From a virus, in the IMG/VR virus record IMGVR_UViG_3300009169_000083, positions 1 through 26,695 of that record: DNA of 26,695 bases; one strand, given 5' to 3'. Below the pieces are notes generated by a model. It searched no databases. It was not told the DNA's origin and worked only from the letters and a program-made list of their open reading frames with translations. Every line of letters begins with the position of its first letter. Position 1 is the stretch's first letter. Positions 1-26,695 of this stretch are shown one piece after another. The translations under genes and the position numbers were made by a program.

Positions 1-2817
1 ATCAATAGTTAAGTTACCATCTCTAAAGAGATATTCTTTATCCAGCTGAGAAGACTGACCAGCCGTAGTAACATTAATTTTAAGTTCCATTCCCCTATTG
101 TCTGTGGTTAGATTTTCTGCTGCATAGGCTCCAATAGATACCCCCATAGCATAGTCATATCCACCACTTCCGTGTTGCCCTAGATAGATTACTCTACCAA
201 CACAATCATCATCCTCTAGTGGTGAAGGAGAAGCACTAGTTCCTCTAGACCTCCACATTCCAAACTCATTATCACAAGCAGCACTGTCATCATAAGTTCT
301 AAGACTGAAGTAAGCTGCCTTATCTGTAGTCTGGTCAGAACCAACTACTCGAATTCCAGTTCCATAAATAGAGGGCCTTATTTGGTCTCCAAGCCTAATT
401 ATATCATGAACTGTGTCTACTTGCAAGTGGTCACTTTCAGTTATGGTTGTTGCATCTTGCCAAACAGTAATTCTATCTGCTTCTCCAGTTCCACTTACCC
501 CACCAGTGCCCTCACTGCCACTAATAGTTACTAGGGTGTAGTTATCTACAGAGTTATCAGAAACATCTACAGTAACAGTTCCAGCACCACTAAAAGCAAC
601 GGAACCTCTTTGTGGCATAACAAGAAGGCTTTCGTCCAAAACTACATGACCCGGGATAAAGCTCGGAGAGGTAGTTGCCACAGAAATAGCGGTTGCTATT
701 CTTTGAGGAATACGAGTCTGTTCTACCTGACCAGTTGTACTATAACTAGCGGATGCATGATATGTAAACTGATACATCAACACAGTTTCAGCAATTGGGA
801 ATCCTGTGTAGTTAAATGTTTTAGGGTCTTCAGCATATGCTAAAGCTGCAGTATTGAATTGTCCTCTACCGGGAAGAAGTACAAAGCGAGCATTCCCCTG
901 AATATTAGTATAAATCAGATAGTAATTATAGTATTTATTATTTTGTCCTTCTGTAAGGGTTCCAGCACTATCCCAATTGATATATCCAGCAGGAGTATAG
1001 CTAAATGGGAGTGCAGAGCGTTCCCACACATAAGTAGTAGCTCCATCCCTATAGAAGATGTCATAAGCTAGGTCTACTCCATTGGGCTCAACCAACTCTG
1101 AAAGAATCCAGTCTAGGTCTTCATCATAGATTTCTGCTTCCGGAATACCATAAGTTAAAGCAGCATCAGTATCTGTATTAATAGTGTATCCTGTTGGAAT
1201 GTCCCCAGTATACAATCTAGTTCCCATAACATGATGCAGATATGTATGAACCATTCTGTCTATAGAAGCCGTATGACGCTCATCCATCAAGTGATACTTG
1301 GGTGTAAGTGTGTCGTCCCAAATAACTATTGCCACAGGAATCTTATCATCTTCAAGAGTCCATGGACTAGTCATTTCTTTCAGTGTGCCATCTGTTGTAT
1401 CCATATAGATATAGTAAGTGGCTTTATTAGGTGGCTCCCCAGTCAGAACTTTTTCTTTCGATTCTGAGATGGTACATAAAGTTCCATCATAGAAATAACT
1501 CCACTCTGAACCATTCATTGTGAGAGATAATGTGTAGGTTCCATCATCAAAGGTAAGAGTAGTTTCTGTGTTGTCTACAAAGCCATATCTATTGATATCA
1601 TTCCAACGAGTGTCATTAACTGTAACAATAGTAGCATCATTTCCAGAGTCATCGGTAGCAGTAACAAAATCGCCTACAAAGTTAAGGTTAGCCCTTTGAG
1701 TTAGAGGAGTGCCTTCTTCTTGTATGGTATGACCACCACCTTCACTGCCACCACTAATTGTAACAACAGTAGCGTCATTACCAGCATCGTCTGTTACTGT
1801 AACCCCATCCCCAACAAAGTTTAAAATGGTTCTTTGAGTTAGGGGATTTCCTTCATCTTGAATTTCATGTCCCCCACCACCACCAGAAGTTGTTGCGGGT
1901 AGTTCCCAAGTAAGGTCATCACGAAGATACTTACTTCCAGTAGGTGTTCCGGAACCTAAATCAGCTGCTACTAAAGGACGAAAGGTAGGAACAGCATCCG
2001 CACCAGTTTCTGGTCCAGCAAAAATCTCATTAGCACCTTGTATATCTAGTCCAAGTTCTTGAGTAGACAGGCTGAGTAGAGTATCTGCATCTGTATCTAA
2101 AGTTACCGGAGTAGTGTCACCACTAAAAACAACAGCTGGAATTGTTACAATAGTAGTATCAACTCCATCATCTGTAACAGTTACACCATCACCAACAAAG
2201 TTAAGAGAAACTCTTTGTGTAAGAGGGACACCCTCGTCTTCTATAGTATGTCCTCCACCACCACCACTTACTGTGATATCAATTATAGTAGCATCATTGC
2301 CATCATCATCTGTAACAGTTACACCAGTGCCAGTAAAGTTCAAGTTGGCACGTTGAGTCATGGGAGTTCCGTTATCTTCTATGACATGTCCATCAATACC
2401 ACCGCTAGGTGGGAGTATATTAACATCGGTTGAATCATTTGCTTCATTATCTGTAACTGTAATCAAGTCTCCAAGAAAGACAAGCTTACTTCTTTGTATA
2501 AGAGCGTCACCTTCGTCATAGATAATGTGTCCCGGGACACCAGAAGCAACTGACTCCTCTAGACCACGGATTCTATACCTTATTCTATTTAGATTATCAT
2601 AGAGGCTAGCACTTACTGTGGGAATTTCCCAAGTAGTGTCATCTTCTAGAAAGTCAAATGTAACTCTATACTGTGGAAGATATCCTATATAACCACCAGC
2701 AGGACCTCCACCACCACCTCCAGAAGTAGGGACTCCACCAAGAACCAAAGGGAAACCTGAGGTATTCATGGTAGGTCTTCTTAAGTACTCAAAAAATTGT
2801 TGTTCAAATAAAGGCAT
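1..2817 (-). CDS. Tail fibre / receptor-binding protein with internal repeats, 3' end outside window
   Basis: Reading from the ATG at 2817 (MPLFEQQFFEYLRRPT), the frame stays open for 939 codons to base 1, so the C-terminus is missing. A glycine run (residues about 33-38) follows the N-terminal segment. Six copies of a module of about 39-43 residues then occur, with the pattern GHxIxDEGxPLTQR followed by VTVTDDxGNDATIVTI. The five clear copies lie at 1618-2532 and a degenerate one at 523-651; most are preceded by glycine-rich linkers. The visible end (GEADRITVWQDATTI, then a GGYDYAMGVSIGAYAAENL stretch) resembles the region before an intramolecular chaperone in trimeric fibres; that is inference. 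It is the last gene seen after the tail-tip genes, 2 nt beyond the hub-propeller stop, which is the usual place for host-recognition fibres. The structural-fibre call is firm; receptor and fold are unknown. Confidence 0.8.
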   Translation of the reverse strand, partial: MPLFEQQFFEYLRRPTMNTSGFPLVLGGVPTSGGGGGGPAGGYIGYLPQYRVTFDFLEDDTTWEIPTVSASLYDNLNRIRYRIRGLEESVASGVPGHIIYDEGDALIQRSKLVFLGDLITVTDNEANDSTDVNILPPSGGIDGHVIEDNGTPMTQRANLNFTGTGVTVTDDDGNDATIIDITVSGGGGGHTIEDEGVPLTQRVSLNFVGDGVTVTDDGVDTTIVTIPAVVFSGDTTPVTLDTDADTLLSLSTQELGLDIQGANEIFAGPETGADAVPTFRPLVAADLGSGTPTGSKYLRDDLTWELPATTSGGGGGHEIQDEGNPLTQRTILNFVGDGVTVTDDAGNDATVVTISGGSEGGGHTIQEEGTPLTQRANLNFVGDFVTATDDSGNDATIVTVNDTRWNDINRYGFVDNTETTLTFDDGTYTLSLTMNGSEWSYFYDGTLCTISESKEKVLTGEPPNKATYYIYMDTTDGTLKEMTSPWTLEDDKIPVAIVIWDDTLTPKYHLMDERHTASIDRMVHTYLHHVMGTRLYTGDIPTGYTINTDTDAALTYGIPEAEIYDEDLDWILSELVEPNGVDLAYDIFYRDGATTYVWERSALPFSYTPAGYINWDSAGTLTEGQNNKYYNYYLIYTNIQGNARFVLLPGRGQFNTAALAYAEDPKTFNYTGFPIAETVLMYQFTYHASASYSTTGQVEQTRIPQRIATAISVATTSPSFIPGHVVLDESLLVMPQRGSVAFSGAGTVTVDVSDNSVDNYTLVTISGSEGTGGVSGTGEADRITVWQDATTITESDHLQVDTVHDIIRLGDQIRPSIYGTGIRVVGSDQTTDKAAYFSLRTYDDSAACDNEFGMWRSRGTSASPSPLEDDDCVGRVIYLGQHGSGGYDYAMGVSIGAYAAENLTTDNRGMELKINVTTAGQSSQLDKEYLFRDGNLTID
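1618..2532 (-). repeat. Five copies of a ~39-residue fibre module (sixth, degenerate, at 523-651)
   Basis: Copies lie at 2416-2532, 2275-2391, 2140-2253, 1756-1872 and 1618-1734, with a divergent sixth at 523-651. Neighbouring copies start 138-141 bases apart (46-47 codons); a longer spacer of about 89 residues separates the third and fourth. The conserved core is DEGxPLTQR, a short strand LNFxGDGV, and TVTDDxGNDATIVTI. Similarity is clearest at protein level, but stretches of DNA are also alike, so copy number could change by recombination. Confidence 0.9.
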
Positions 2818-2819
2818 AG

Positions 2820-5800
2820 TTAGTTCCTATCATCTAATCTAATAGTTAAGATTTGTCCTAGTGCTCCACTAGGAAGTCCAACAGAATATTCATTCCATAT
2901 AAGGTCTTCATACTCTCCAATAAGGTTTCCCGTCTTCTGAAAGAAAAGTGGTCCGCTTTCTCCAGAACAGGCTACAAACATAAATTGATTATCCATGAAG
3001 TTAGAGGTCTCAACAGCTTTTACTTCATATCCGAAGTCATGATACTCACCTTCTTCAGGGTCATCAGTATAATGTCCTTGGTCCCACATAATCTCATTCT
3101 CTACATCATAGTTCCAAACAGAGTTAGCGTGTGGATACAAGATTCTTCTGTAATAACCATCTCCACCACCACTGAAAGCACCACCACCACTATAAGCTGC
3201 CTGACCATAGGTACGGGGTCCAAAGTATAAGAATCCTGTGGTATACCCCGGGTCTATAAGACTAAAAGTGTTTTCGTCTCCATTATCAGATTCATACATC
3301 CAACCATGGACAGGGCCGTCTCCCCAAAGAAGTACTGGAGATGGCTGTGAGCAATCTACTCTTGGAACATATCCAATATCATACACACTTTCATACCCAC
3401 CACTAGCTGCTGGTCTAAGACAACCATAAGGCCAATAGAGTGTTTCTGTTTCTCCAAGGACATTTCCTTCTTCCATAATAAGATATCTTGACCCATAGTC
3501 AGTCATTAAGATATTTTCATAAACAGTTGGGGAGTAGATACTTGTGTTTGTACTAAATAAACTGCCACTTATAAAATCTTTGTCATATTTATATATTCCA
3601 GTTACCCCACCAACAGTAGTTCTCACATAAAAACTTCCATCACCATCGTCTCCATACTGTCCAATTGAAAAAGGAGCACTAAAAGTAGCATTAGCCGAAG
3701 ACCCATCTAAACCAATAACAGTGTAAGTAACCGGACTTCCATCGGAAGTAACTAAAACTGTAGCAAGTTCATTAGTAGCAATTTGTACATAGTCAGCAGT
3801 AGCATGAGAAAAAATAGTGGTTGTATCAAGGGTTTTTATTTCTAGTGTAGGGGAAGTTTTAATAGCATATACAGTATCATTAGATTTTCCATAAGCTAAG
3901 CCTGTTCCTAGATTTCTTGTGCCTGTTTGCGTGGTAAGAGTAAAACTTCCTCCAGAAGATGTCCAAATACCCCCATGGTCCGGTCCTGAACCAGATGGAG
4001 CATATACTCCAACAAATCCTGCTGTAGTTTCTATACACAAAAACCTCATATTATGGGAAGGGGTGCTTATATATACTAGCCAAGGCTCTGAACTCCATAC
4101 AAGAGCACCAGCACTCATAGAAGGAGTGGCTGGATTATATATATACTTAGTGATAGCATCTTTATAATAAGAATTTCCGTCATATGTAGCACCATAACGA
4201 ACTCCACAAAAGGCATACCCTAATCCATTTCCTTCATCATCCATCTCTACAAAAACACAAGCCCTAGAGGGTGCTATACGTGTCCATGTATGTCCTTCAT
4301 CATCTACAAAACTTAATAGACCATCGACACTATCTTCGAGTTCAATATGACCAGATTGATAGTCAATTAAGTATGTAACAGTCCATGCCCCCACAATGCT
4401 GTTGTCCCAATAAGCATATAACATATACCTATCACTTAAAACATGTTTTGACTGCTCATTGGCAGACGCTAAACCAGCAACCTGTATTTTATTAACTATA
4501 TCGTTTCTATCTTCTGCATACCACATATAATCACCAACACCTTGAGGTCCAGTAGTAACCGGATTGCAGTCATAAATTTCAGGAGAAATCATTCCTGAAA
4601 TACTATTATAGGTTGTAGGACGCTGACAGTTTGCATTTGGCTTTACCCAAGTCTTCCATTCCCCACCCCCACCGGGGCCTCCAAACTGATATAAAGCAGT
4701 TACATAAGTGTATTCTTCATTATCGTCTATATCAATGCCATAAACGTTAGGGTTATCTTCTACCAGCATCTGAGTTATAGTAAAAGTAGAGCGACTGGTC
4801 ATGTCTAACACCCAGCATCGAGGGTCACCTACTACCTGATAAATCTCTTGCCCCATTACCTCTAACCTATTAACTTGGTCATTAAGATTAAAAATAGCTA
4901 GGACATGACTGGTATCTTTAGTAACAGTACATCCCATACAAGTAACATCTGTAAGACCATAAACTGTTCCTTCTTCGTCTATGAATCTATTTGCAGTGGT
5001 GAAGGGAATCCAAGCACTTTCGGAAGAATATCTTGTCCACAACTTTCCATTTCCGTCCACACAAGCAAATACACCATTGTAGATAGCAAGGTCTGGCACA
5101 ACTAAGTTGGTAAGACCAGTAGAATAGTCATACCACGTGTGGTCATATCGAACATGCTTTCTCCACACTCCAGCACCATCGGTTCCTACATAGACAAAAT
5201 CCCCAAAGTCATAGTATCCAATAATTCTTTCACAACGCTCATCTAGGAAGATGGTAGTCATTATTCCAGCACTAGTTACAGTAACAGAAAGGGTAGTTAT
5301 TAGTCCCGCCCCGGTGTAATAATCGGAGCTTATAAAAACAGTATCACCAACAGAAATATCTCTAAACCCAGTTAGCTCTATTTGCTTTATAAAAGTTATC
5401 TTTTTTGTTTCTTTCAAGATAGAGCTAGCAATGCCAGCTGCAGTCATGTTATCTCTAACCCCAGCTACATTGACACCCACCTTTCTTACATCAAGGGCAT
5501 CTCTATCCCATGGGGTAGTTACAGAAAGTTTAGCAAAAACATAGTCCCCTGTTTCATAATTACCATTGCCCCATACCACTACCTGATTTCTAAGACTGGA
5601 ATCATTTTTATTTGTCTTTACAGATAGGATATCGGTGTCATCATAAAAGGCAGCGGGTTCTGCCATATTTATTTCAGTCTTACCAATTCGTATAGTTCCA
5701 CCATAGTCAGTATGCATGTACCAACCACTTTGCTTTAGAAGCTCTATGATGATTTCCATGGCTGTAGTTCTGCCAAAGCTAGAGTTATTAGATACAAGAG

Positions 5801-6182
5801 TTCCATAATCAGAAACATCAAAGGTGTAAGAAACTCCGGCTTCATCCAAATACTTTTCTATCCAAGTTCTAGTATAGCTGGGGGCATCACCAGTTTCTGT
5901 TATGTCTACAACAAAGTAGTCCGTAAGTTTTTTAGACGCATCCTGAGCTGTAATTAGGGTTGTATTTTCAGGAATTTGGTGGTCTAGTGAAGAGATATAA
6001 AACTTACCATGAGTTGTCCCATCTTCTTTAATTGTAATCAAATCATAGGGCTCATAAGCATATGCCCTAAGTTTTGTACTTAACCTCAAAATTCCTGTGC
6101 CTTCACAAATGTTATGACTTCTATCATAACTGACACAGTCTGCTGTTATATCCGTACTTTTCCATAAAATCTGAAAGCTCAT
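2820..6182 (-). CDS. Baseplate/tail-tip hub-like protein fused to a propeller-like region
   Basis: This is a 1120-aa protein. The start is taken at 6182 (MSFQILWKS), where ATG overlaps the preceding stop as TAATG; an ATG 15 codons upstream lies inside the preceding gene and is less likely. Residues 1 to about 325 resemble phage tail hub proteins: a ligand-like barrel region, then SLRNQVVVWG (S196 onward), and a C-terminal strand-rich part. The remaining ~800 residues are rich in W, Y, G and D with irregular blade-like units such as VYVGTDGAGVW and GKLWTRYSSESAW. These recall sialidase or BNR-type propellers. A glycine-rich loop (SGGGAFSGGGDG) lies near residue 1020. Its place between the first hub-like gene and the fibre suggests a tail-tip component that contacts the cell surface. 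Hub similarity comes from motif and context; the propeller assignment is inference. Confidence 0.65.
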   Translation of the reverse strand: MSFQILWKSTDITADCVSYDRSHNICEGTGILRLSTKLRAYAYEPYDLITIKEDGTTHGKFYISSLDHQIPENTTLITAQDASKKLTDYFVVDITETGDAPSYTRTWIEKYLDEAGVSYTFDVSDYGTLVSNNSSFGRTTAMEIIIELLKQSGWYMHTDYGGTIRIGKTEINMAEPAAFYDDTDILSVKTNKNDSSLRNQVVVWGNGNYETGDYVFAKLSVTTPWDRDALDVRKVGVNVAGVRDNMTAAGIASSILKETKKITFIKQIELTGFRDISVGDTVFISSDYYTGAGLITTLSVTVTSAGIMTTIFLDERCERIIGYYDFGDFVYVGTDGAGVWRKHVRYDHTWYDYSTGLTNLVVPDLAIYNGVFACVDGNGKLWTRYSSESAWIPFTTANRFIDEEGTVYGLTDVTCMGCTVTKDTSHVLAIFNLNDQVNRLEVMGQEIYQVVGDPRCWVLDMTSRSTFTITQMLVEDNPNVYGIDIDDNEEYTYVTALYQFGGPGGGGEWKTWVKPNANCQRPTTYNSISGMISPEIYDCNPVTTGPQGVGDYMWYAEDRNDIVNKIQVAGLASANEQSKHVLSDRYMLYAYWDNSIVGAWTVTYLIDYQSGHIELEDSVDGLLSFVDDEGHTWTRIAPSRACVFVEMDDEGNGLGYAFCGVRYGATYDGNSYYKDAITKYIYNPATPSMSAGALVWSSEPWLVYISTPSHNMRFLCIETTAGFVGVYAPSGSGPDHGGIWTSSGGSFTLTTQTGTRNLGTGLAYGKSNDTVYAIKTSPTLEIKTLDTTTIFSHATADYVQIATNELATVLVTSDGSPVTYTVIGLDGSSANATFSAPFSIGQYGDDGDGSFYVRTTVGGVTGIYKYDKDFISGSLFSTNTSIYSPTVYENILMTDYGSRYLIMEEGNVLGETETLYWPYGCLRPAASGGYESVYDIGYVPRVDCSQPSPVLLWGDGPVHGWMYESDNGDENTFSLIDPGYTTGFLYFGPRTYGQAAYSGGGAFSGGGDGYYRRILYPHANSVWNYDVENEIMWDQGHYTDDPEEGEYHDFGYEVKAVETSNFMDNQFMFVACSGESGPLFFQKTGNLIGEYEDLIWNEYSVGLPSGALGQILTIRLDDRN

Positions 6183-7180
6183 TATTGTCTCAAATCCAAA
6201 GCAGTTGTAAATCCACCTTGACCCCACTGATGCTCACAACTGTAAACATACCAGTTAGAATCAATTCCAAGGTAAGAATTTCTTAGTCGTACTATCTCTC
6301 TTGCTGCAATATCCGGGTCACCCACAGTAGTAATCCTAGAAGAATACGTAAGCCTGTTTAGAAGGTTTAAGTTGTAGTCCGCTACTTTGTGTGCCATAGA
6401 AGTATCATCTATAATTGTTGTAAGGTCTGCAACTACGGACTTATAAAAACCAGCGGGAAGATATGGTGACACCGCAGAAGCTGTGTAGTGAACCCCCTCA
6501 GCTCCATACACTACAACCCTGTTTCGAAGACTATTATCTGTAGTAGAGAAGTAAACGTTATTTGTGTCTACTTTCTCTATTGTGTGGCTTGCCATTCCTA
6601 TAGGAGTTTCGTCTGTGGTGTCCCCGGGTTGTCCGGTATCTCCAGTCATTACATAGGGCTTTCTATTTTCAAAGTGGCATGTCCCCACAGAATCACACCA
6701 AAGATGCCAAGTAAGAGCGTCACCAATTGACCTACAGTAATCAAATACCGGAACGAGATTTACATTAAAGTCGTGGGAGATTCCAAAAGTAAAATATGTT
6801 GTATCATAAGTATAGCTTGTCAATCCAGCCATAGCTAACAACTGTCTGACCAGCTCTTCTGCTGCAATGTTTCTATAGGAAGTAAGATTATTCGGGTCAT
6901 CTGCTACGATAAAGTAATCTACCGCACGAATCATCTTGTCAGAAGCAGTAACAGTTACTACATTATCCGGAACGTTCTTTTCTATTTGTTTGACATACCC
7001 CGTAAAAACTTGTGGATAGTTATCTGTGTATCCAAGACGTATAGTAATAGCATCACCAATGTCCAGCGTGGTGCTTGTGCAGAGGATAGTAGCAGCAGTG
7101 GTAGCTACGGAGTGACTTTCTGAAATCACTACGCTTATTGGTCTAGTTATTCCCGTAGCTGTGCATTTTAATACTGACAT
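6182..7180 (-). CDS. Tail hub-like protein (gp27/gpD-like family, probable)
   Basis: This is a 332-aa protein whose ATG overlaps the preceding stop (TAATG at 7178-7182) and whose own stop overlaps the next start, so translation is probably coupled on both sides. The N-terminal half has barrel-like strands (ITIRLGYTDNYPQVFTGYVKQIE) followed by VTVTASDKMIRAVDYFI. The middle carries DALTWHLWCDSVGTCHFENRKPYV and SLRNRVVVYG (S217 onward), a motif seen in many phage baseplate hub or late-control D-type proteins. The end (YVYSCEHQWGQGGFTTALDLRQ) is the usual closing strand pattern of these proteins. The same SLRN-VVV motif occurs in the next gene, suggesting duplication. It probably forms the central tail-tip ring below the distal tail protein. 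Confidence 0.65.
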   Translation of the reverse strand: MSVLKCTATGITRPISVVISESHSVATTAATILCTSTTLDIGDAITIRLGYTDNYPQVFTGYVKQIEKNVPDNVVTVTASDKMIRAVDYFIVADDPNNLTSYRNIAAEELVRQLLAMAGLTSYTYDTTYFTFGISHDFNVNLVPVFDYCRSIGDALTWHLWCDSVGTCHFENRKPYVMTGDTGQPGDTTDETPIGMASHTIEKVDTNNVYFSTTDNSLRNRVVVYGAEGVHYTASAVSPYLPAGFYKSVVADLTTIIDDTSMAHKVADYNLNLLNRLTYSSRITTVGDPDIAAREIVRLRNSYLGIDSNWYVYSCEHQWGQGGFTTALDLRQ

Positions 7181-7554: not shown

Positions 7555-10500
7555 TTACGTTTGCCAGTGGTAGTTATTAGCAGCAGAACCTGTTCCAGCA
7601 TTGTATCTGATAAGGTCTTGCATAATGTAGGTCTTTATTACATTAGCCAGCTGTCTACCGTCTATATAAAGTTGTTGTTTGTTATCAATAGAAAGTTGTA
7701 ACTGTGTCTGCATTTTTTGCTGTGAAGCCGCACCACCCATTCCAGCTCCAGCACCAGCTCCAGTTATAGGGGTAGTAGCAGAAAAAGTGCTGAATAGCTG
7801 ACTTATATTTTGCATTGCTCTAGAAAAACTTTCCGCAGTTATTCCACCCATTCCAGCAGACAAAGCATCTCTATTTTCTGCTTGATATGACCATGGTGTT
7901 CTTTCTGTAGGCATTTGCCATGGTTTTACTTTTGTTTCTCCCTGCTCTAGTAATCCCATATCAGTGAGATTCTTAAGAATATTAGGTTCATTAGTCCAAT
8001 ATGCAGAGTTAGGTAACCCATTAGTCATTCCGGGTGTTGATTTCGAAAAAGCACTTGGTTCCGAAACTCCACCAACTCCACCAGTTCCCATAGAGCCTAC
8101 ATTCATGGTAGCTACATTCATGGTAGCTACAGACATAGCTGCACCTAGTGGTGTAGTTGCTATTCCACCTCCACCACCGCCTCCACCACCGCCTCCACCA
8201 CCAGAAGAAGGGGAAAAGATATTTCTAAAAGCTTGTTCTATTGGGTTTACTAGGTTAGCAACCAAGGTTTCAAGAGCATAAGAGATTCCCTCTATGATAC
8301 CCATTTTTTCTTCTGCTTTATTTGGTCCCATCCAAGGAGCTGTTCTGTTTGGAGACCCTGCTTGGTTCTTATTATATAGCAAGTAAGAATTCCAAGATTC
8401 TTCCTCTCCCTTTCTAAAATCCTCCATAGTTTTTGCTGGTGTAAGCACAGACTCAGCATCAGCTTTTCTAAAATCTTGCATAAGTTGGTTTAGTGCATAA
8501 GAAGCATTAAGAGCGGCGGTATTAAGTGCGTCCACTCCGGGATTTGCCCCGGTTCCTTCCCCACCAGCAGTTTCACCCTTGTATTGCCAAGCACTGTAAG
8601 GAAGCCAGAAAGACATTCCTTCAGGAAGGTTATAAATACCATCTACACTCTTCTCTAGAAGCTTGTTATTTTCTTCTAGCAAGTGTTCTATGATGAACAT
8701 AACACCTTTCATAACTTCCATAGTTTCATTGGAAGTTTCCATAATCTTAGTTGATTCAGACCAATCAATGTCATCAAACACACCCTGTTGTTTAGCTTGC
8801 TCTTGTAATCTAGCTAACTCTGCAGGATATTGTTGTCTAGCACGTGCAATAGTTGATGGGTCTAACTCAGAATATACTGGAGTAACCTTAGATGCTTCTA
8901 CAATTTTTCCTAGTTCAACTAAATCTGAATGTGCTTGGGTAAGAGATTCTTGAGAAAGTCCCTCGATGCGTTGAAGCGTTCCATCTACTAATCGTAGATA
9001 GAATACTTGGTTATCCATATTTTTCTTATACGCACCAGCCTCATCTGGTCTATCTTGTTCAACTAACTTTTTAATAGTGCCTTCTTTTTCAGCTGTTGCT
9101 GCGGCTATAACCTGATTTAGAGTTTGTTGTGTCCAATCTTGTCGAGAAATATTAGGAACACCAGCAGCATTTACTCTGGCACGTAATATTTCTTCTCCAG
9201 TTACTCTTACTAACTCTGCCCTAGTATCAGAAATTAGTTTTTCAACTTCCCCATAAGAAAGTTCTGTTTCAAGACCACCAACAGAAGTTGTTACTTTTAA
9301 GTCTCCAGCCTCTTTTGCTGTTTCTAAGTCTGAGACGTAGTTGTCTAGAGTTGTTCTTAGGTCATCTACCGCTGCGATTTGTTCTGGAGTTCCTTTAATC
9401 ATAAGGTCAGCTAGACCTCTATAAGCATCTTCTGCTGTTTTTATTCCGTTTCCCAAACCTTCATAGTTACCAGCTAAATCTGCTAGCGTTAGAGGAATAG
9501 CCGCAGGAAGACCAGAAATAGCGGTCTTCTTATTTTTAAATTCACGACCACTCAAATTACCTTTTGTGAAGTATTCTTTATCCAGCCATTCTCGAGCATA
9601 GCTTTGGGTTTGTCCCATTAAATCTTTGTTGTAGTATTTTAGAAATTCTGGAGACTGCTCATTATACAACTCCCCTCCGGGAGCCCCCAAAGAAAGAGAA
9701 TATCTGTTTAACTTCTCTCTCATGTTTTCTTCGGAGGTTTTCATTTTAGAACCTGTATCTACTCCAAACAGTTCTGAAATGCCTTTTATAGCCCAAGTTA
9801 GGGGTGCTCCAGCAACATTAAGTCCTCGCATTCTGCCACCAGCTAACTCCATAGCCGCTTCTTTTTCAGTAACGTCTTTACGTAAAGCTCTTTGAGTTCC
9901 TAAAAGAAACTTTCCAAGCCATTCCATGCCAACCACTTCCCCTCCTCCACCTAATTGACGCAGAATCGCTGATTCTTCTTTACTTCCAATAATTTTTTTA
10001 CCTTCTTCTTCGGCTGCTTTCTTTGCACTAGTTCTAGTAAGACCTTCAGCATTATATTCTGGTATAGCTTGTGCTATAGCAGAAGTTAGAGTTGTAGCGA
10101 TAATTCCAACCCCGGGTCCATAAAGCCATGTAGCAAGGCCACCAACAAGAGCTACAGCAATACCACCACCTACATCACCATTTGCCATAGCCATTGCAGC
10201 AGTCAATCCAACTGCAATAGAAGCTCCGATTTTTGGTGCGTTTTTCTCAAACGATTGCTGAACCCCCAAACCAAAAGCGGTTCCTTTTTGATTCCAAACA
10301 GTTGAAGTTCCCTCTGCTTTTTTAATTTTTCCAAGCACTTCTTTATCCAGCCAAGGGTCTCCAAACTCTTCTGTTTCTTCAGCAGCTGGTAATCTTAAAT
10401 TTTTACTGAATCTGGACATTATTCCATATCCAGCTAATCCGAGACCCTTTCCAATACCACCACCAATACTTCCGATAGTCTCATTAAATCTTCCACTTCC

Positions 10501-13500
10501 AGCAGCTAATTTTGCTCCTCCAAGAAGAGCTAGAGCTGGAGCAGCGGTTCCCATTGCAGCTGTAACAGCTGTTACCCCCTTTAGTACTTGGTCTAGAAGC
10601 CAAACTAAACCTTCCATGCTATTAAGAATTCCACCTTCCATTCCAAGAGTCATGGCTAGTTTTTCAAAAGTACTTGAAAGATTTGTAACTGCAGTAGCTA
10701 CGGTATCTAACTCCAAAGCCAAGGCTTTTTGTGCTTCCCCATCTGCTGTAGCAGACTGAGCAGCAACTTCATTCATTCTATTAAGATTAGAAAGAGATGC
10801 TACTACAATAGCAGAACGTCTGTTACCACCACCAATAGCCATACCAATTCTGTTCATCTGGTCTTGTGTAATAAGACCAGCATCTGCTAGGGCTTTGATT
10901 TCACCCATAACATCTTTGAAACCACGAGCATCTCCTTCAGCATTAGTTAGAGCAATACCAAAGTTAGTAAGTTCTTTTCTAGCATTATCTGAAGAGTATC
11001 CAGAAATAAGAGCACGAACAGCATTACCTGTTTCACGAGCTCCCAAAGTAGTTACTTCTGCTACAGTTGCAATAAGACCATTAAGTTCATCCACAGAAAG
11101 GCCAGCATTTGTTGCGGCTTCTGCTACAATGCTAAAAGAGGTTGCAAGGGTATTTAAGTCTACATTTGCAACCCTAGTTGTTTTCACCCACTTATCAAGA
11201 AGTTTATCACCCTCTTGAAGTGGTAGATTCATTTGTTTCAAAGAAGCTACAAGAGCGTCTGTAGCAGATGCTTGCTGCATATCTGCCAATTTAGCTAATG
11301 TAATAGAATCGGTCAGTAATTTGTTTGCTGTAGCATATTTTTCTGTTTTATCAGTAACATTACCTACAGCTCTAAAAGCTTGGTTATATCCATCAATAAC
11401 ACCATTTAATGACTCACCAGTTTTCTGAGCTATCTCATATGCACTAGTAAACACCTTATTAGCAGCTGATTGTGATTCACCTAAAGTAACCAAAGTATTA
11501 ACTAACTTACTCTGAGCTTCGATGGAAGTTTGCACCAGCTGTCCTAGTTTTTGAAGTGGTGTATAGATAAGAGATACTGCTAGAGTCCATCTGAAGAACT
11601 CGCTTGTATTTCTTTTCAGTGCCTGTCCAAAATCTAAGAATCTCTTGCTAGTGTTATCAAGAACTTCACCATATCTTGTTACAGCTACGGAAGCTTGTTG
11701 CATCACACCACTCTGGTCTTTATAAGAAGCATCTATTGTAGTCATACCAGTAGAAGCCGCTCTTTTTACTTTGTACTTAACGCTTGAATTATTTAAGAAT
11801 TCCGGGTCTAAATCATAAATTCTAGAGAGTCCCTTAACTGTTGCGGGGTCATTTGCTACACCACGAAGTGTCATTCTAGTCATGGCTTCTTGCTTATCTT
11901 GACTTTCTTGTTGCTTCTGTAATATTGCTCCCTTTCTCTTAGCCACATCCATTTGACTTTTTGTTAGGGCACGTCCTGCATCGTCTACTTCATATACAAC
12001 ATAGTCCATAGCTTTAGTAATTGTATTTTCTACAGCTACTTTTACTCTATTCTTTTGGTCATCTACCTGAAGACCAATAGGGCGATTAATAGTACCACCA
12101 CCAAAGAAATCTTCGGAAACTCTTTGTGCAACATTTCCATACTTAGCTATTGGAGGAAAGATATCCGGTCCGTTAGGGTTAGGAAGATTATAACCTTCTT
12201 TACTAAATACACCCTTAACTCCAGCTTCAGAAACGACAAAACCCTTCTTCTCAAGCTTCTTCATAGCATCAGAAGTAGGGGTATTATATGCAACTCTTCC
12301 TAAAGGATTAAAAGCTCCGGCAGATTGACCAGCGATTTGACGAGCTACTTCACTAGGGTCAACAGGTCCATTAGCAGTAAGTCTAGCTGAAACCATTCCT
12401 GCAATAGTTTGAACAAGTCCAGCCCCACCAGCTGCACCAAGATTAATAATGCGTCTTGGGTCAAGCTCTTGATTAAGAGCTAAGGCACTCGGAGGAGCAG
12501 GAACAAGGGCTCTCGAAGCAGGAATAGGTGGCTCTTTTCCACCAAAACCGGGACCCATTCCCATAGGAGGATATACTGATTGATTACCCCCGGGTAACCA
12601 ATAAACACCATCACTTTGAGAAGGTAGTCTAGTTCTTGCTCCGGTAGGTCCCATTACTGGAGAAGGTCCAGATGGAATAATAGCTGTCTGCTGTGCAACT
12701 TGTATTGCAACATCTTCAGGTCTATATCCTACAGAGGTTCCAAGATACCTGTCTTTTGGAAGTCGAGCATTGATAGCATCAATAACCGCTTGCTTCTCTA
12801 CTCTAGAACCTTTACCAGTTCCAATAGCAAATCTACCGGGTGCTACTAATTCAGTACCCATTACGGACTTAACTATCCTATCTATATTTTCAGGGGTAGC
12901 TGTTCTTCCAAGCTCTTCTTGAACATACTTAATTAGAGCCTTTTCTATTTGCTTCTTAGTAGCTGCTTTCTTTGAGCCACTAGCTGGTGTCTCTATAGAC
13001 ATGCTGAATAAAAGGTTTGTTTCAGAAATTCCCTCTTCTCCAAGACCATATGATAATAAGCTTCCTTCATCCGATGGTCCTAGACCAAGGACTTTTTTAA
13101 ATCCTGTCAATCTGCTTTTGCTTTCATTAGTCTTTTGCCTACTAAACTCTCTTACTTCTTTTAACCAAGCAATATCTTTAGGTGTTAAATATCCAGCAAG
13201 TTGGAGTCTTCTTATAACTTCAGCCCCAACTTCTGTTTTAGTTGTACCAAAAGCAGTATAGTTAGCCACTTCTCTAGCTATAATTTCATTTGGAAGCTGT
13301 AAATATTCTAAGTGGTTAGGGTCATATTCCATTCCCATAAGTTTAGTGAGACTTTTATAGGCTGTTTTAACTTGCTGCTTTGCCTGTCTGCTTACTAATA
13401 ACTTCTCCATATCATCAACAAAAGAACGTAATTCTACTTCTTCTGGAGACGGGGCAAGGTCTATTCCCTTTACTCGTTTAATTTCCATCCTTTTCATCTT

Positions 13501-18863: not shown

Positions 18864-19298
18864 TTATTCCTCCTCTGATAAATCTAATAAAACCCTGTTA
18901 ATAGGTTGCACCCCCCTCAAGATTTGCTTCCTAACCGACATACGGTGACCATCTACTTCCACATATTTAGCGCTTTCTATTGTAGAAATAATGGTATCAG
19001 TGTATTCTATCTGCACTCTGCAGTCACCTTCCATCATTTGACCCCCCGTAGCCCAACCGAGTTGGTCATTCCCACCCCAAGTAATATGTGCCATGACATC
19101 CGTTCCACTCGCTGTTATAAGGTATCCAATACCTGAACAGGTTGTGCAGAAGGGATTAGTTGAGTTGCCAGTAAAGATATCAGTATCACATGCAGGACAA
19201 TCTGATTCGATTTCCTGTACAAAAGTGATTTCTCTTCCAATAGCATCTCGAATGTCATCTATTATTTCTTTTGTATTACTTGGAAATGTTATTGCCAT
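18864..19298 (-). CDS. Head-tail connector candidate with four-cysteine zinc knuckle
   Basis: The product is 144 aa. The ATG at 19298 lies inside the end of the glycosyltransferase gene (23-nt overlap), with GAGGT 5 nt before it. After an N-terminal helix (KEIIDDIRDAIGREITFV), CxxC pairs at C34/C37 and C51/C54 bracket the loop DTDIFTGNSTNPF and form a probable zinc site. A beta-rich body follows (MAHITWGG, CRVQIEYTDTIISTIESAKYVEVDGHRM). Size, beta content and position between the adaptor and tail-completion genes fit a head-closure or joining protein. The zinc site is a sequence-based prediction and the connector role is inference. Confidence 0.6.
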   Translation of the reverse strand: MAITFPSNTKEIIDDIRDAIGREITFVQEIESDCPACDTDIFTGNSTNPFCTTCSGIGYLITASGTDVMAHITWGGNDQLGWATGGQMMEGDCRVQIEYTDTIISTIESAKYVEVDGHRMSVRKQILRGVQPINRVLLDLSEEE

Positions 19299-20496
19299 CC
19301 ATTACCTCTGTGAACAGTTTATCCCACATTCCGGCTACTGTACCCCAAGAAAATGCAGGACTTGTAAACTTAGCAACCGATTTTCTTCCCAGCTCATCTA
19401 GTAACTCCCTATCGTTGTAGAGAAGTTCTAGCTTCTTTGCTACATCTTCTGGTCTAATAAGAGAACCCTGTGTTGCAAACTCTGTAGTTACATGGGCTAC
19501 TGGCTCTACCAAAAGACCACAATCATTATAGAACTCATAATTTACTGTATGATTTCCTACAATCTGCGGTGCTCCTGTAACAGCATGTTCCATGTTTACA
19601 AGACCCCAACCTTCACCAATTCCGGTGTTGAGTCCAACATCACAGATATTATAAATCATGTTAAGTTTCTTGTCAGAAACCATCTGTGCCCCAATTTTTT
19701 TAGATGTAAACAGAATTCTGTCTTCTAAGTTATAGTACTTTATAAATTTAATAAGGTCTATGTAACTATCTTTGATACCCATATGAAGATACAAATGCAC
19801 ATTAGCTGGCTTGTCTTTAGCAAACATGGAGAAGGCTTCAATGGTGATGTCTGGTTTCTTTCTTGGCTGGTTCCGATTTGCATTTAGAACCATGAAAGAA
19901 TCTACAAGAACTTCTCTATTTGGAATTTCAACAAAGTATTTATCCCTAACTTCCCTTCTAGTTGGAGCAACTTTAAAGAAAACTTCTGTATCCAAGCCAT
20001 GAGGAATGATATCATACTTAATATCTGGAGCTGCGGTAGAGGCGACTTCCTTTCCAAACTCTGTATAAACCACAGTCCTATCAACAATGTCCATCTCTTC
20101 ATACCATTCGGGGTCGTGCCTTAACCCATCTACGGGAAAGTAAACAACCACTTTTGGTTTTGGAGGTGCTTCTTTTTCTGTCAGAAGCTCTTTAATCTCT
20201 TTTAGGTATCTCTTAATAATCCAAATGTCATTGAGGATAAATACAATATCCGGCTTCTCTTTTTTAATTATGATGCTTAGTTTTCCAAGCCCATAAATAT
20301 CTCCCGTATGGGAAATCCCTGCTGGGTAGATTTTGAATGGGTAGTCATGGGGGTCTCCCCAATAGTTGATACCCAACATTACTATCTCATACTTTTCTTT
20401 TGGAAACCTGCTTATTAGTGAATGTGCTACCCTTGAAAACCCTGTTGGTACTACTCCATCTGAAACCCATAAAACCTTTATTTTTCTTTCTGCCAT
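19276..20496 (-). CDS. GT-B glycosyltransferase (GT4-like)
   Basis: This 406-aa enzyme starts at ATG 20496 with AAAGGA upstream. The N-terminal domain opens with KVLWVSDGVVPTGFSRVAHSL, a strand plus glycine-containing loop as in GT-B enzymes, with KPDIVFILND near residue 85. The interdomain part has FMVLNANRNQPRKKPDITIEAFSMF. The C-terminal domain carries GEGWGLVNMEHAVTGAP, an EX7E motif (E295, E303) that usually contacts the donor sugar nucleotide. No transmembrane segment is apparent, so it is probably cytosolic. The overlap with the next gene and the setting in the connector operon suggest co-production with virion proteins. It may glycosylate capsid or tail proteins; a role in modifying host surface polymers is an alternative. 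Acceptor and sugar cannot be read from sequence. Confidence 0.88.
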   Translation of the reverse strand: MAERKIKVLWVSDGVVPTGFSRVAHSLISRFPKEKYEIVMLGINYWGDPHDYPFKIYPAGISHTGDIYGLGKLSIIIKKEKPDIVFILNDIWIIKRYLKEIKELLTEKEAPPKPKVVVYFPVDGLRHDPEWYEEMDIVDRTVVYTEFGKEVASTAAPDIKYDIIPHGLDTEVFFKVAPTRREVRDKYFVEIPNREVLVDSFMVLNANRNQPRKKPDITIEAFSMFAKDKPANVHLYLHMGIKDSYIDLIKFIKYYNLEDRILFTSKKIGAQMVSDKKLNMIYNICDVGLNTGIGEGWGLVNMEHAVTGAPQIVGNHTVNYEFYNDCGLLVEPVAHVTTEFATQGSLIRPEDVAKKLELLYNDRELLDELGRKSVAKFTSPAFSWGTVAGMWDKLFTEVMDGNNISK

Positions 20497-21355: not shown

Positions 21356-21396
21356 ATATTAAATATTCCTGTAAGATTCTCCACTTACATTTTGTA

Positions 21397-21864: not shown

Positions 21865-21898
21865 TCCTTTATAATTCCTTTCTTAATTAAATTTTTTA

Positions 21899-21920
21899 GG
21901 GGGAGGTTTTGGCCTCCCCC
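21899..21920 (-). terminator. GC-rich hairpin after the capsid gene
   Basis: An 8-bp perfect stem (GGGGGAGG / CCTCCCCC) with a 6-nt loop begins 17 nt after the major capsid stop. On the transcribed strand the stem is followed by TAAAAAATTTAATT, not a clean U run, so termination may be partial; on the plus strand it is followed by ATATTTTTG. It could also protect the capsid mRNA 3' end. Confidence 0.6.
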
Positions 21921-21936
21921 ATATTTTTGTTACACT

Positions 21937-22842
21937 TTAGTTAACGTGTAGAACACCGATACCTTGTGCATTATCAATCATAAGACCGAACTGCTGCACA
22001 ATGTCCAAGTGCCAGTAAGGAGGTGTTGGCTGGTAGTCAGTCCATTCTTTTGAACGCTCTGGTCCAAAGGTAATGAACTCACCAACATTTTCACCAACCA
22101 CTAGCGCATAGTTTTCACTGTACAGTGGGTTGTAGTCTTCAGGATTGTCCCAAACCTGATTGATGGCAATAATCGGAACACCGTAGTAGTTACCGAGATA
22201 GCCAGTTCTCATAAGTTCAGAAATTCTTTCGGGCACGTATCCAACATCACCAGCAGCAGTAGTGAAGAATGCAGCAAACTTGCTGATGGGTTGAACAACG
22301 GCACGAGTACCAATAATAGCTTTTGCACCGGAAGTAGTTTGGTTAATATGGTCAATCATATCTTCTAGTGCAGTATCAGTAATTACAGCACCGCAGTTAG
22401 TATAGTTATTTGGAGTATTACCCGGTCCCCAAATCTGTCCTAATGCAGTAAATACTTTATTCTGGTAGTAGTCACGTAGTTTCGCACCAGCTTCCGCTTT
22501 CAGCGAGGCAATAGTTCCAATCTCTCCAGATTCAAGTTCCCACTCATTTGCCAATACACCAACGATGGCTGAATCCAGCACATAGTTGATGCGGTCTGTC
22601 ACAGTGATTTCATGCTTCAGACCAATCTGCCCGGGCACCCACGTGTGTACGTGAATCCCCTTGCGAATTTTCTTCACAAGGGAGTCACCGGGAGCAAGGT
22701 TACGAGTGTTCAAAATCATGCTAACGAAGTCAGTGGTGATATGATTGGGCTGAATATACTCCACAATCATCTGTGCCAAAGCCTCACGCTGAGAAGTATC
22801 TTTCATCATCCCAGCAATTGCTTCCTCGAATTTCTTTTCCAT
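21937..22842 (-). CDS. Major capsid protein (HK97 fold, probable)
   Basis: This 301-aa protein starts at ATG 22842, with GGAGGT 9 nt upstream. The features fit HK97-type subunits: an N-terminal helical arm (residues 1-45), an E-loop-like segment (about 50-80), VLDSAIVGVLANEWELESGEIGTI leading to a spine-helix region, and a central A/P-domain-like part (GAKAIIGTRAVVQPISKFAAFF, GYLGNYYGVPIIAINQVWDN). It ends in strands (YWHLDIVQQFGLMIDNAQGIGVLHVN). It follows the protease-scaffold and decoration genes as expected. Less AT-rich codon use suggests high expression. Proteolytic trimming of the arm is possible because a protease is encoded nearby, but no site can be named. Confidence 0.88.
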   Translation of the reverse strand: MEKKFEEAIAGMMKDTSQREALAQMIVEYIQPNHITTDFVSMILNTRNLAPGDSLVKKIRKGIHVHTWVPGQIGLKHEITVTDRINYVLDSAIVGVLANEWELESGEIGTIASLKAEAGAKLRDYYQNKVFTALGQIWGPGNTPNNYTNCGAVITDTALEDMIDHINQTTSGAKAIIGTRAVVQPISKFAAFFTTAAGDVGYVPERISELMRTGYLGNYYGVPIIAINQVWDNPEDYNPLYSENYALVVGENVGEFITFGPERSKEWTDYQPTPPYWHLDIVQQFGLMIDNAQGIGVLHVN

Positions 22843-22867
22843 GTTAGTTAATATAACCTCCGTTTAT

Positions 22868-23446: not shown

Positions 23447-23462
23447 GTCTAAATCCTCCTAG

Positions 23463-23906
23463 TTATTTCTTTGACTCAAGTGATTTCAGATATGCAGCCA
23501 ATTCTTTTGGTCCCACTTCTTCGGTTTTCTTACCACCGACTGGGGGAACAATAGGATTGTCTAGAGTATCTTCATTCTTTGAAGCCGAAGCGGTTTTAAA
23601 AGAAACAAGTTCTTGTACCATAAAGTCCACTTCTTCCTTTGCCATAGAAAGGAACATGTCTTTATTCTTGCCAAAATAGTCTTCATCCTTTTCAATTCCC
23701 GCTTCCTTGAATTGTAGTTTTACAGCATCTAACTTTTCAGCGTCTTCCTTTTCCTTATCAATAGCTGCTTTAAATTCAGCAAGTCCGTCTCTCTCAGCTT
23801 TAAGAGTAGCCAATTCAGCCTCTTTTGCAGTGACCATGGCTTCTTTCTCAGCAAGGGAAACTTTCAACTCTGCGTTTTCTTTAAGCAGTTTTTCTAGTTC
23901 TTCCAT
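23463..23906 (-). CDS. Nested scaffold protein from internal start (predicted)
   Basis: Within the protease-scaffold gene, ATG 23906 (M187) is preceded by GGAGGA with a 7-nt spacer, as good as any true start in this window. The site falls exactly between the protease domain and the coiled coil. Initiation there would give a 147-aa scaffold (MEELEKLLKENAELKVSL at its start) in excess over protease. The lambda C/Nu3 pair is a known case of this arrangement. Only the start site is seen directly; its use is inferred. Confidence 0.65.
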   Translation of the reverse strand: MEELEKLLKENAELKVSLAEKEAMVTAKEAELATLKAERDGLAEFKAAIDKEKEDAEKLDAVKLQFKEAGIEKDEDYFGKNKDMFLSMAKEEVDFMVQELVSFKTASASKNEDTLDNPIVPPVGGKKTEEVGPKELAAYLKSLESKK

Positions 23907-24464
23907 TGAATTCTCCTCCAATTTGTCTTCGTGTTTTCCTGCCACTTCTAATATCGGTGTCCTGCCTTCGTAAGCGGGCATTCCTACTAGAGTAACAGCT
24001 CTAAGGACAGTATCTCGAAGTTCTTCAATACCTTCCTCAGTTGTACTTGCGTTGGCAAATAGAATCTCCCAAGAAAGTTGTAGTGGTTTCTTGTCGTGAT
24101 ACATTTGCTTGACAAGGTCTACATCTTCCGGATTTTCCTTACTCCAAAGAGCAGCCAATCCCATAATTTGATTCTTAAATTTCTTTAGGTGAGTAATCAC
24201 CCCGATAGGTCTGGAGTAGTCATGTCCATCATTGATAGACCCTTCGGCCATTTTGATAGGCATATAAACTCCCGTCTTTATCAGATTGTCGAACTCCTCA
24301 GCTGGCACACGTTGTTTGTTGGCATTCGGCTTATCATCTGTTAGAATAAACTTAGTCCATGTTACCGCAGGGTTTAAGTTTATTGCTGAGAAAGCCTCCT
24401 TATCCTCTTCGGCCAGTGCTTCCAACATGAGGAATTCAGTTACGAGTTTTACTTGTTTTTCCAT
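23463..24464 (-). CDS. Prohead protease fused to scaffold
   Basis: This 333-aa protein starts at ATG 24464 with GGGAGAGG about 11 nt upstream. Residues about 30-175 match the serine protease fold of prohead maturation enzymes: MAEGSINDGHDYSRPIGVI (candidate His H81), LQLSWEILF (candidate Ser S131), then LRAVTLVGMPAYEGRTPIL. Residues about 180-265 form a Glu/Lys-rich coiled coil, and the tail ends PKELAAYLKSLESKK, as in scaffolding proteins that bind the capsid subunit through a basic C-terminus. The protease would remove scaffold after prohead assembly. No separate scaffold gene is present, which supports the fusion reading. A promoter and a leader hairpin lie just upstream. Confidence 0.85.
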   Translation of the reverse strand: MEKQVKLVTEFLMLEALAEEDKEAFSAINLNPAVTWTKFILTDDKPNANKQRVPAEEFDNLIKTGVYMPIKMAEGSINDGHDYSRPIGVITHLKKFKNQIMGLAALWSKENPEDVDLVKQMYHDKKPLQLSWEILFANASTTEEGIEELRDTVLRAVTLVGMPAYEGRTPILEVAGKHEDKLEENSMEELEKLLKENAELKVSLAEKEAMVTAKEAELATLKAERDGLAEFKAAIDKEKEDAEKLDAVKLQFKEAGIEKDEDYFGKNKDMFLSMAKEEVDFMVQELVSFKTASASKNEDTLDNPIVPPVGGKKTEEVGPKELAAYLKSLESKK

Positions 24465-24483
24465 TTATCTGAATACCTCTCCC

Positions 24484-24508
24484 AATAGCTGTCTTACCCA
24501 CAGCTATT
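24484..24508 (-). promoter_or_regulatory. Leader hairpin next to the protease-scaffold ribosome binding site
   Basis: A perfect 9-bp stem (AATAGCTGT / ACAGCTATT) with a 7-nt loop GGGTAAG on the transcribed strand lies about 12 nt after the predicted transcription start and immediately before the GGGAGAGG ribosome binding site. It has no U run, so a terminator is unlikely. A 5'-end mRNA stabiliser or a protein-binding operator for translation is plausible. Confidence 0.55.
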
Positions 24509-24526
24509 TCCTATTCGCTATTAATA

Positions 24527-24556
24527 AGTATAACATACTTTGAGTTTTTATGTCTA
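24527..24556 (-). promoter_or_regulatory. Predicted sigma70-type promoter for the head genes
   Basis: TAGACA (24556-24551, 5 of 6 to consensus), an 18-nt spacer, and TATACT (24532-24527, 5 of 6) point leftwards to the protease-scaffold gene, with a start expected near 24520. It lies in the 100-base gap after the endonuclease gene, the largest gap in the head region. A second TATAAT at 24564-24559 has no well-spaced -35 partner. Confidence 0.55.
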
Positions 24557-24564
24557 TTATACCC

Positions 24565-25143
24565 TTATTTGTCCAAATTTTCTTCTAAATATGCTACAGC
24601 ACGCAATAAATTAGGAACACTGTCTTTAAATTTACCCAAACCAGTATTACAATTCGGGCATAAGAGGCCCCTAACTTTTCCCGTAATATGGTCATGGTCT
24701 ACATGAGGGGTAGACATTTCCTCATTACAAATCTTACATCTATTACCCTGTGCTTCAATCATATTAGTATGTTCTTCTATAGTAAGACCATATTTCTTTT
24801 TTATGTGGTACTTATAAGAAGCTGCTCTCATCTCTTCTGGATGGGCTTTATTCCATTTATCTCGAGCTGCCTTAAATTTTTCTTTATTTTTATTGTAATA
24901 ATCTCTAAAACGTGCTGCATTTTGTTTAGCATACTCTTCTGGATTTGCTTCTTTTTTCTTTCTTGTCCATTTAGCAACACTTTCACGAATCTTTTCTGGA
25001 TGTTCTTTATAATATTGTTTTGTTTTTTCGTTCACATGCTCTTTATGGCTTAGATAATATTTTCTACGGCTCTCTTTTACCTTTTCTGGATGCTCTTGTC
25101 TATATTTTATTCGATATTCTTTACGTTTTTCTGGAGTTACCAT
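24565..25143 (-). CDS. HNH endonuclease, recombination endonuclease VII type (free-standing homing-like)
   Basis: This 192-aa protein starts at ATG 25143 with AAAGGA 5-6 nt upstream. Residues about 115-192 carry the endonuclease VII pattern: YGLTIEEHTNMIEAQGNRCKIC, HVDHDHITGKVRGLLCPNCNTGLG. Zinc ligands are probably C136/C139 and C162/C165, with catalytic D149-H150-D151-H152. Residues 1-115 are lysine-rich degenerate repeats (EHPEKVKESRRKYY, EHPEKIRESVAKW) that probably bind DNA. It lies 15 nt after the portal stop and before the promoter. Both flanking genes look intact, so it is not in an intron that can be seen. Such genes often spread as homing endonucleases; a role in resolving DNA branches during packaging is the alternative. 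Confidence 0.9.
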   Translation of the reverse strand: MVTPEKRKEYRIKYRQEHPEKVKESRRKYYLSHKEHVNEKTKQYYKEHPEKIRESVAKWTRKKKEANPEEYAKQNAARFRDYYNKNKEKFKAARDKWNKAHPEEMRAASYKYHIKKKYGLTIEEHTNMIEAQGNRCKICNEEMSTPHVDHDHITGKVRGLLCPNCNTGLGKFKDSVPNLLRAVAYLEENLDK

Positions 25144-25158
25144 TTTTATCCTTTCGAT

Positions 25159-26695
25159 TTATCCGTTTTTAGGGTTCGGAGCTCCCTGTTTTGGTCCGGG
25201 TTTTGTCTCAGAAGGTGGTTTAGCCGGATTGTTCCCGGGTGTAGAAGGTCCTTCTGGAGCACGACTGTTAGGTAGTGGAGCAAACTCCTCGATACCCTTT
25301 TCCTTCAACGTCTTATTTTCTTTTTCTTTGATGTTGATTTCATCATCCCAGTCATAACCAAAGTACTTGTCATAGCTGGTTCTTGAAAGTCCACCACTCT
25401 CGTAAAGCTTTCCAAGAGCTCCAACAAATGCTGCAAAGTCTACGAGCTGAAGAGGCTCAAAAATAATATCAGGTTCAGAAGCGAACTTGTTATCTTGAGC
25501 TACTTTATCAATTATCATTTCAAGAATGGTGATAATCTTCATACGCATATTCTCCATGGTCTTTACAGGAGACATAGAAGCGTATTGTGCGTCTGAAGAA
25601 TTACTCTTCTCAGACTCACCAGTAATCAAAATGCGTGGGAACCCTAAAGCAAAGATAATGTCTTGGTTCACCTCACGATACTTGGTATCATCTGTCAAAA
25701 CTTCTACTGGAGGAAACACCCAAGAAATATCTAGTGTGTGGTTTCCATAAAGAGTATAGATGCGTTCAATGTCTCTTTCAGAAGAATCTCTCCACGCTAG
25801 CTGTGACCGAATAGCATTCAACTGCTCTTCCCCATCTTTTTCAAGAAGTGGGAAGTCCCTATCACCAAGCTTTACAACCATGATAGCAGAAATAACTCTA
25901 GAGGCAATAGAGTAGTCCATACGCCTTAGGTTTCTTTTGTGCTTCATGGCTTCAATAGCTGGGTAAAGATATGAAATCGGATAAGCTGTGTCCGATAAAA
26001 CCTTACGTCTAATTACAAGAGTACCATCTACTTTAACCTTAGTCTTTCCAGCATTAATCTGAGCTACGAAGACCGGATACTCTGCTTTCAATTTCATGAA
26101 CATTTCAGGGTCTTTATTCCCATCTGGATATTCTCCCTGATGCTGAATAAAGTAGATTAGGTCTTCCGGAATTTCTACAAAGTAAGTCGGTTCATCCGAT
26201 AGAATGTTCTTTTCAACTTCTACACTCATCGGGTCACGCAACCACATATTTGTAGGCAAGACCAAAGTATTATACTTCTTGATGTTTAATTTCTTTAGAG
26301 TTTCTTTCCCTACAGGGTCATAATGAACCTCCGGAAAAACAAGTCCGGAAATCAAAAACTCTAAAGCCATTGCTTCAGCAAACTCTTGTAGCTTAGGAAG
26401 GATAGCTTCGAAGACTCTGAACTCATTGTCTGTCAAATCTCCTTTACTTAGAGTTAGACCATTGATTCCTATATCTACCATCTTATTAACTACAGAAGCA
26501 GCAAGAGGGTCACGCCTGTAAAAGAAGCGGCAAGCTTCCACCATCTTCTTAAATTCTTTAGCATCAGCAAACTCCATCTTATCTACATCAGAGGGAGACC
26601 AAGGGTTACCCCCAACACTCTTCATGTAGTGATAGGTAGCCTTAGCAAGCTTTGGCTCCACCTCTGCTTCTTTTGCTACAATACCAAATCCAACA
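25159..26695 (-). CDS. Portal protein, N-terminus beyond right edge
   Basis: The frame is open to base 26695, so the true start is outside the window; the GTG at 26661 is internal, because GFGIVAKEAE reads in frame before it. At least 511 residues are visible. Portal-like features include FFYRRDPLAASVVNKMVDIGI (helical wing region), PTNMWLRDPMSVEV, LIYFIQHQGEYPDG, and the stem/clip-like MKHKRNLRRMDYSIASRVI. RYREVNQ-type strand and helix text follow with DIIFALGFPRILITGES and SPVKTMENMRMKIITILEMIIDKV. The C-terminus is Pro/Gly-rich (APEGPSTPGNNPAKPPSETK), possibly a flexible tail inside the head. It forms the dodecameric DNA gate at one capsid vertex. The terminase genes are expected just beyond the right edge. 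Confidence 0.85.
   Translation of the reverse strand, partial: VGFGIVAKEAEVEPKLAKATYHYMKSVGGNPWSPSDVDKMEFADAKEFKKMVEACRFFYRRDPLAASVVNKMVDIGINGLTLSKGDLTDNEFRVFEAILPKLQEFAEAMALEFLISGLVFPEVHYDPVGKETLKKLNIKKYNTLVLPTNMWLRDPMSVEVEKNILSDEPTYFVEIPEDLIYFIQHQGEYPDGNKDPEMFMKLKAEYPVFVAQINAGKTKVKVDGTLVIRRKVLSDTAYPISYLYPAIEAMKHKRNLRRMDYSIASRVISAIMVVKLGDRDFPLLEKDGEEQLNAIRSQLAWRDSSERDIERIYTLYGNHTLDISWVFPPVEVLTDDTKYREVNQDIIFALGFPRILITGESEKSNSSDAQYASMSPVKTMENMRMKIITILEMIIDKVAQDNKFASEPDIIFEPLQLVDFAAFVGALGKLYESGGLSRTSYDKYFGYDWDDEINIKEKENKTLKEKGIEEFAPLPNSRAPEGPSTPGNNPAKPPSETKPGPKQGAPNPKNG

Follow-up and report, generated by a model that had tools for sequence, protein, structure and literature searches.

Elimination of GATC and CCWGG from the structural module of an uncultured tailed phage, and turnover of the eliminated words among its relatives

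The window analysed here is an entire IMG/VR virus record (IMGVR_UViG_3300009169_000083) of 26,695 bases, with a GC content of 39.9%. It is the structural module of an uncultured tailed phage, coded on the minus strand and running from portal to tail. The following features were assigned.

1..26695, no strand: stretch without GATC or CCWGG (exact search and codon shuffle)
25733..26695, minus strand: overlap with L067 (IMGVR_UViG_3300027721_001017), 963 bases with one mismatch
25159..26661, minus strand: portal protein, as read in the window; the frame starts further upstream in L067 (PHROG 2739, E 8e-18)
24565..25143, minus strand: Recombination endonuclease VII-like protein (PF02945, E 4e-24)
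23463..24464, minus strand: probable head maturation protease (PHROG 3244, E 5e-5)
21937..22842, minus strand: probable major capsid protein, assigned by its place behind portal and protease; the PHROGs it matches have no known function
19276..20496, minus strand: glycosyltransferase (PHROG 2170, E 2e-44; PF00534)
7555..14208, minus strand: tail tape measure protein, 2217 aa (PHROG 4211, E 1.6e-21)
6182..7180, minus strand: tail protein, YqbQ-like (PF24032, E 2e-12)
2820..6227, minus strand: large 1135-aa protein of the tail region, without a Pfam or PHROG match
1..2817, minus strand: possible tail fibre gene, a 939-aa open frame running off the left window end, its function suggested by position only

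The second record, L067, extends the same phage genome past the portal end of the window and carries a terminase, three tRNAs and a gene for a ParB-like protein, together with a series of genes of glycosyltransferase, nucleotidyltransferase and methyltransferase fold. This series (L067:4318-8283) lies directly before the terminase, and the glycosyltransferase at 19276-20496 is a further one, set among the structural genes of the window; these enzymes may act on the virion, the cell surface or DNA. The window had no nucleotide match in the phage collection, and the portal protein had none among phage records; the capsid protein found one distant match there, Microcystis phage MaeS, at 24% identity. 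The tape measure protein and the glycosyltransferase were used as queries too, and neither led to a closer relative.

An exact string search of the 26,695 bases found GATC and CCWGG zero times on either strand, which bears out the complete absence claimed in the first-pass annotation from reading alone. The expected number of GATC sites is 69.8 under a maximal-order Markov model, 93.5 from base composition and 80.1 in dinucleotide shuffles; for CCWGG, the Markov model predicts 23.1 and dinucleotide shuffles 38.5. Both words, at 0 of 69.8 and 0 of 23.1, thus fall under the published definition of elimination (a ratio of observed to expected sites under 0.1, where 15 or more are expected; PMC6286503). 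A scan of the window plus its continuation found no comparable depletion in any other 4-mer or 5-mer. L067 contains no GATC (37.8 expected) and a single CCWGG (10.4 expected), located at position 130 between tRNA genes, so that over the joint 36.6 kb the counts are 0 of about 108 for GATC and 1 of about 34 for CCWGG. The related CCSGG words are not avoided, with 42 seen in the window and 29.6 expected beside the zero for CCWGG. The annotation had also listed CCCGGG at 650, 2531, 3247, 6623, 10111, 12589, 13568, 15760, 20989, 22630 and 25234, and the search returned exactly these 11 positions. Its expectation of about two such sites holds as a base-composition figure, but the Markov expectation is 7.2; its estimate of about 40% GC agrees with the measured value.

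We examined the coding route of this loss with a shuffle that permutes synonymous codons while fixing the encoded proteins and total codon usage (23.6 kb of genes, 1000 trials). GATC sites averaged 69.3 in the shuffled genes with a minimum of 45 (z -11.0), and CCWGG sites averaged 29.3 with a minimum of 17 (z -7.4). Since none of the 1000 shuffles fell below these minima, the loss acts through synonymous codon choice, and codon usage or base composition is excluded as its cause. The codons themselves give the same picture. Asp before C is encoded by GAC in 55 of 55 cases, whereas elsewhere in the window GAT outnumbers GAC by 293 to 129. Pro before GG is CCC or CCG in 23 of 23 cases, as had been proposed for Pro-Gly pairs, although CCA and CCT prevail elsewhere (230 versus 70 for CCC and CCG). 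CCSGG correspondingly rises to 37 in genes compared with 12.0 in the shuffle (z +7.7). The sites have therefore been lost mostly through silent codon changes.

Approximately 95 family members were recruited by capsid protein searches, and the same protein served as the basis of a tree, on which 30 members are GATC-free and 65 GATC-bearing. Observed/expected ratios for GATC are bimodal across the family: 31 values are 0.12 or lower, one is 0.19 and the remainder are at least 0.26. Parsimony places 15 changes of GATC state on the capsid tree, of which well-supported branches require no fewer than 7. When all 4- and 5-mers were scanned in the relatives, the palindromic words found nearly eliminated were GATC, GGCC, GGWCC, GCWGC, CCWGG, GCGC and CCGG, all of which are palindromic Type II sites; the non-palindromes were CCCAG (2 records) and CGAG (1 record). 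The window and L067, G001 and L135 have lost CCWGG to the point of elimination, and in L012 and L094 it is reduced; CCSGG is kept in all of these. L135 lacks CCWGG and keeps GATC, while nearly all other GATC-free relatives keep CCWGG. The non-palindromic word CCCAG/CTGGG, for which no known enzyme was matched, stands at 0.67 of expectation family-wide, with 0 of 17 expected sites in G001 (L043), 1 of 15 in L135 and 17 of 36 in the window; the observation also takes in G002, L137 and L142. It is low in some MAG sequence too (21 of 36), and part of this depletion may be background.

Close relatives in opposite states come from a single metagenome. G001 and G002 (both 3300027887) have capsid proteins that are 90% identical. 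G001 contains neither GATC (55 expected) nor CCWGG (19 expected), whereas G002 has 13 sites of each (41 and 17 expected). A second pair from one metagenome, GATC-free G015 and GATC-bearing G005 (3300014913), shows the same division. Six CCWGG sites of G002 fall on Pro-Gly pairs that are kept in all three phages, and at each of them G001 and the window have CCSGG, which shows through what substitutions the two states differ.

Taken together, these results make it very probable that Type II restriction enzymes with GATC and CCWGG as their sites exert strong, continuing selection on the phage lineage. Their targets would be unmethylated GATC (as for MboI/DpnII/Sau3AI) and CCWGG (as for EcoRII/MvaI). 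A newly arisen site would render the incoming genome cuttable, genomes carrying such a site would be removed, and survivors would have exchanged their sites mainly silently, from GAT C to GAC C at Asp and from CCW GG to CCS GG at Pro-Gly. That CCSGG is kept speaks for an EcoRII/MvaI-type specificity, for W, rather than the CCNGG specificity of ScrFI-type enzymes. That removal is continuing is suggested by the roughly 1,850 places in the 36.6 kb that lie one mutation from GATC: sites must arise often, and the count is nevertheless zero. The double elimination is repeated in the continuation L067 and in the relative G001. Which enzymes these are, that they are active and that a host or hosts carry both is what we infer from this pattern. 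According to a published survey, it is mostly non-temperate dsDNA phages that show elimination, which affects almost only orthodox Type II sites (PMC6286503); a search of 33 fragmentary family records for integrases of the tyrosine type found none, which may fit that link. Some considerations weigh against restriction. For two motifs to be lost together, one host must carry two enzymes or hosts must succeed one another, and methyltransferase genes in the relatives fail to separate GATC-free from GATC-bearing phages. Phage-encoded methyltransferases had been considered as an alternative to avoidance when they were seen only in GATC-bearing genomes (G003, G005, G008 and G014), but the wider set has N6_N4 methyltransferases in GATC-free or GATC-poor phages as well (G023, G025, G026-G028 and G031). 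Because these genes occur in both classes, self-methylation as a complementary strategy is unsupported.

GATC and CCWGG are exactly the enterobacterial Dam and Dcm sites, and the words could in principle have been lost to avoid effects of methylation, either by escape from methyl-directed mismatch repair at GATC or by deamination decay of methylated CCWGG. There is precedent in phiX174, which has no GATC and whose mutation rate falls when GATC sites are restored (PMC5014478). The deamination products CTWGG and CCWAG, though, show no excess (153 seen, 147 expected), which makes Dcm-type decay unlikely, and the replacement observed between G002 and G001 or the window is CCSGG. Mismatch repair concerns GATC only, and would leave the loss of CCWGG, and of GGCC, GGWCC and GCWGC in relatives, unexplained. 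Moreover, GATC loss and CCWGG loss are separate in the relatives. We therefore regard avoidance of Dam and Dcm effects as an improbable account. The first-pass annotation had offered both readings, restriction and avoidance of Dam/Dcm methylation. Its restriction reading emerges as the best supported, given the directly observed elimination, its synonymous route, its W-specificity, its lineage-specific turnover and the loss of other Type II sites in relatives; its second reading is weakened by L135, by the GATC-free relatives that keep CCWGG and by the missing deamination excess.

Cutting of methylated and of unmethylated sites would leave the same trace in a sequence, and DpnI-like or other nucleases specific for methylated DNA could act on phages that gain methylation in one host and are cut in another. 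Where the host has a Type IIM enzyme for GATC, the phage had fewer of these sites than expected in all 46 cases (PMC6286503). Such a scheme needs alternating methylating and restricting hosts as well as a methyl-dependent enzyme for CCWGG, whereas classical Type II restriction needs neither, and we judge it slightly less probable still than the Dam/Dcm account. An artefact of codon bias, of base composition or of the loss of GATC-containing DNA during library preparation has a negligible chance of being the explanation. Codon-preserving shuffles contradict the compositional forms, and the library form is excluded by phages of one metagenome in opposite GATC states (G001 and G002, G015 and G005).

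The relatives of the window may also show which way the state has changed. G002 and L177 are 87% identical, and in the 5.6 kb they have in common each carries six GATC sites, of which one is shared; control palindromes have 6 to 10 sites in common out of 17 to 29. At 7 of the 10 unshared GATC sites, GACC or GACT stands in the other phage. With both phages pooled, GAC is used before C in 40% of cases and in 17% elsewhere (p 0.006). Such a pattern would be expected if GATC sites were returning after having been purged in an ancestor, though the numbers are small. The same GAC excess is found in GATC-bearing G008, L103, L087 and L076 and is absent in G014, L179 and L110; its presence in several GATC-bearing relatives and not in others offers weak ongoing selection as an alternative to re-gain. 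Five CCWGG sites are common to G002 and L177, which makes separate purges of CCWGG in the window and G001 lineages more likely, with the caveat that fourfold sites are only 40–49% identical. The family could be a natural record of restriction escape over time. GATC would have been purged in the ancestor of the window, G001 and G002/L177, GATC restriction would later have been lost in the G002/L177 branch, where sites would now be re-arising independently, and CCWGG would have been purged separately in the window and G001 lineages. We put this history forward tentatively, as possible rather than probable. If it is true, phage sequence alone could suffice to read the restriction repertoires of hosts and to date their turnover.

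Restriction-site elimination is a classical, long-known anti-restriction strategy, and the window is an extreme new case of it. Escherichia phage T7 (NC_001604) is likewise nearly free of both words, with 6 GATC of 141 expected and 2 CCWGG of 56 by the same measure, but its elimination is incomplete and its host is known; as the window had no nucleotide match in the phage collection, no close relationship to T7 is seen. For Staphylococcus phage K, elimination of GATC has been reported and explained as avoidance of Sau3A (PMC6532042); that report concerns one motif only, in an unrelated phage with a known host enzyme. These two precedents place the window within a known kind. Coliphage phiX174 also lacks GATC entirely (PMC5014478), but it is a 5.4 kb ssDNA phage, is treated there in terms of mismatch repair and mutation rate, and CCWGG is not concerned. 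In a survey of prokaryotic viruses by Rusinov et al. (2018; PMC6286503), about a tenth of the genomes had eliminated sites wholly or nearly so, and these were almost exclusively sites of the orthodox Type II kind. Their survey covers phages of known hosts, in contrast to the uncultured family described here, in which gain and loss recur between near relatives. What the family adds is this repeated on/off turnover, which spans about 95 members, involves several eliminated words and sets near relatives of one metagenome against each other. The rates of purging and re-gain thereby become measurable, and the elimination pattern predicts the restriction specificities of the hosts.

Regarding those hosts, which the first-pass annotation thought the pattern might help to identify, a single-sequence scan of cellular genomes returned no related sequences, and an alignment scan returned two MAG contigs of the family, L072 from a Brevinema MAG (a spirochaete) and L073 from a Bathyarchaeota MAG (an archaeon). 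Searches across one class (257 genomes) and one phylum (393 genomes) found no further carriers of the capsid gene, leaving a single genome in each. Mis-binning of both contigs is therefore likely, and these isolated sequences may be binned phage contigs. The Bathyarchaeota MAG (L145) has a gene for a Dam-like methyltransferase and no obvious restriction gene among the open frames of a 2.6 kb stretch, as judged from the frames themselves. The host searches thus yielded these two MAG contigs only, from which no host or restriction enzyme was identified.

Some minor features of the relatives may be added. A tRNA-Pro(TGG) gene followed by two tRNA-Gln genes occurs in identical order in L067 and G001, and G005 carries 20 tRNA genes clustered at L047:16046-19359. 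The portal genes of the near-identical relatives G003 and G005 (L032:1501-2943 and L033:1501-2943) each have one in-frame TAG inside the tblastn match, which may reflect a gene end within the aligned stretch, read-through or recoding.
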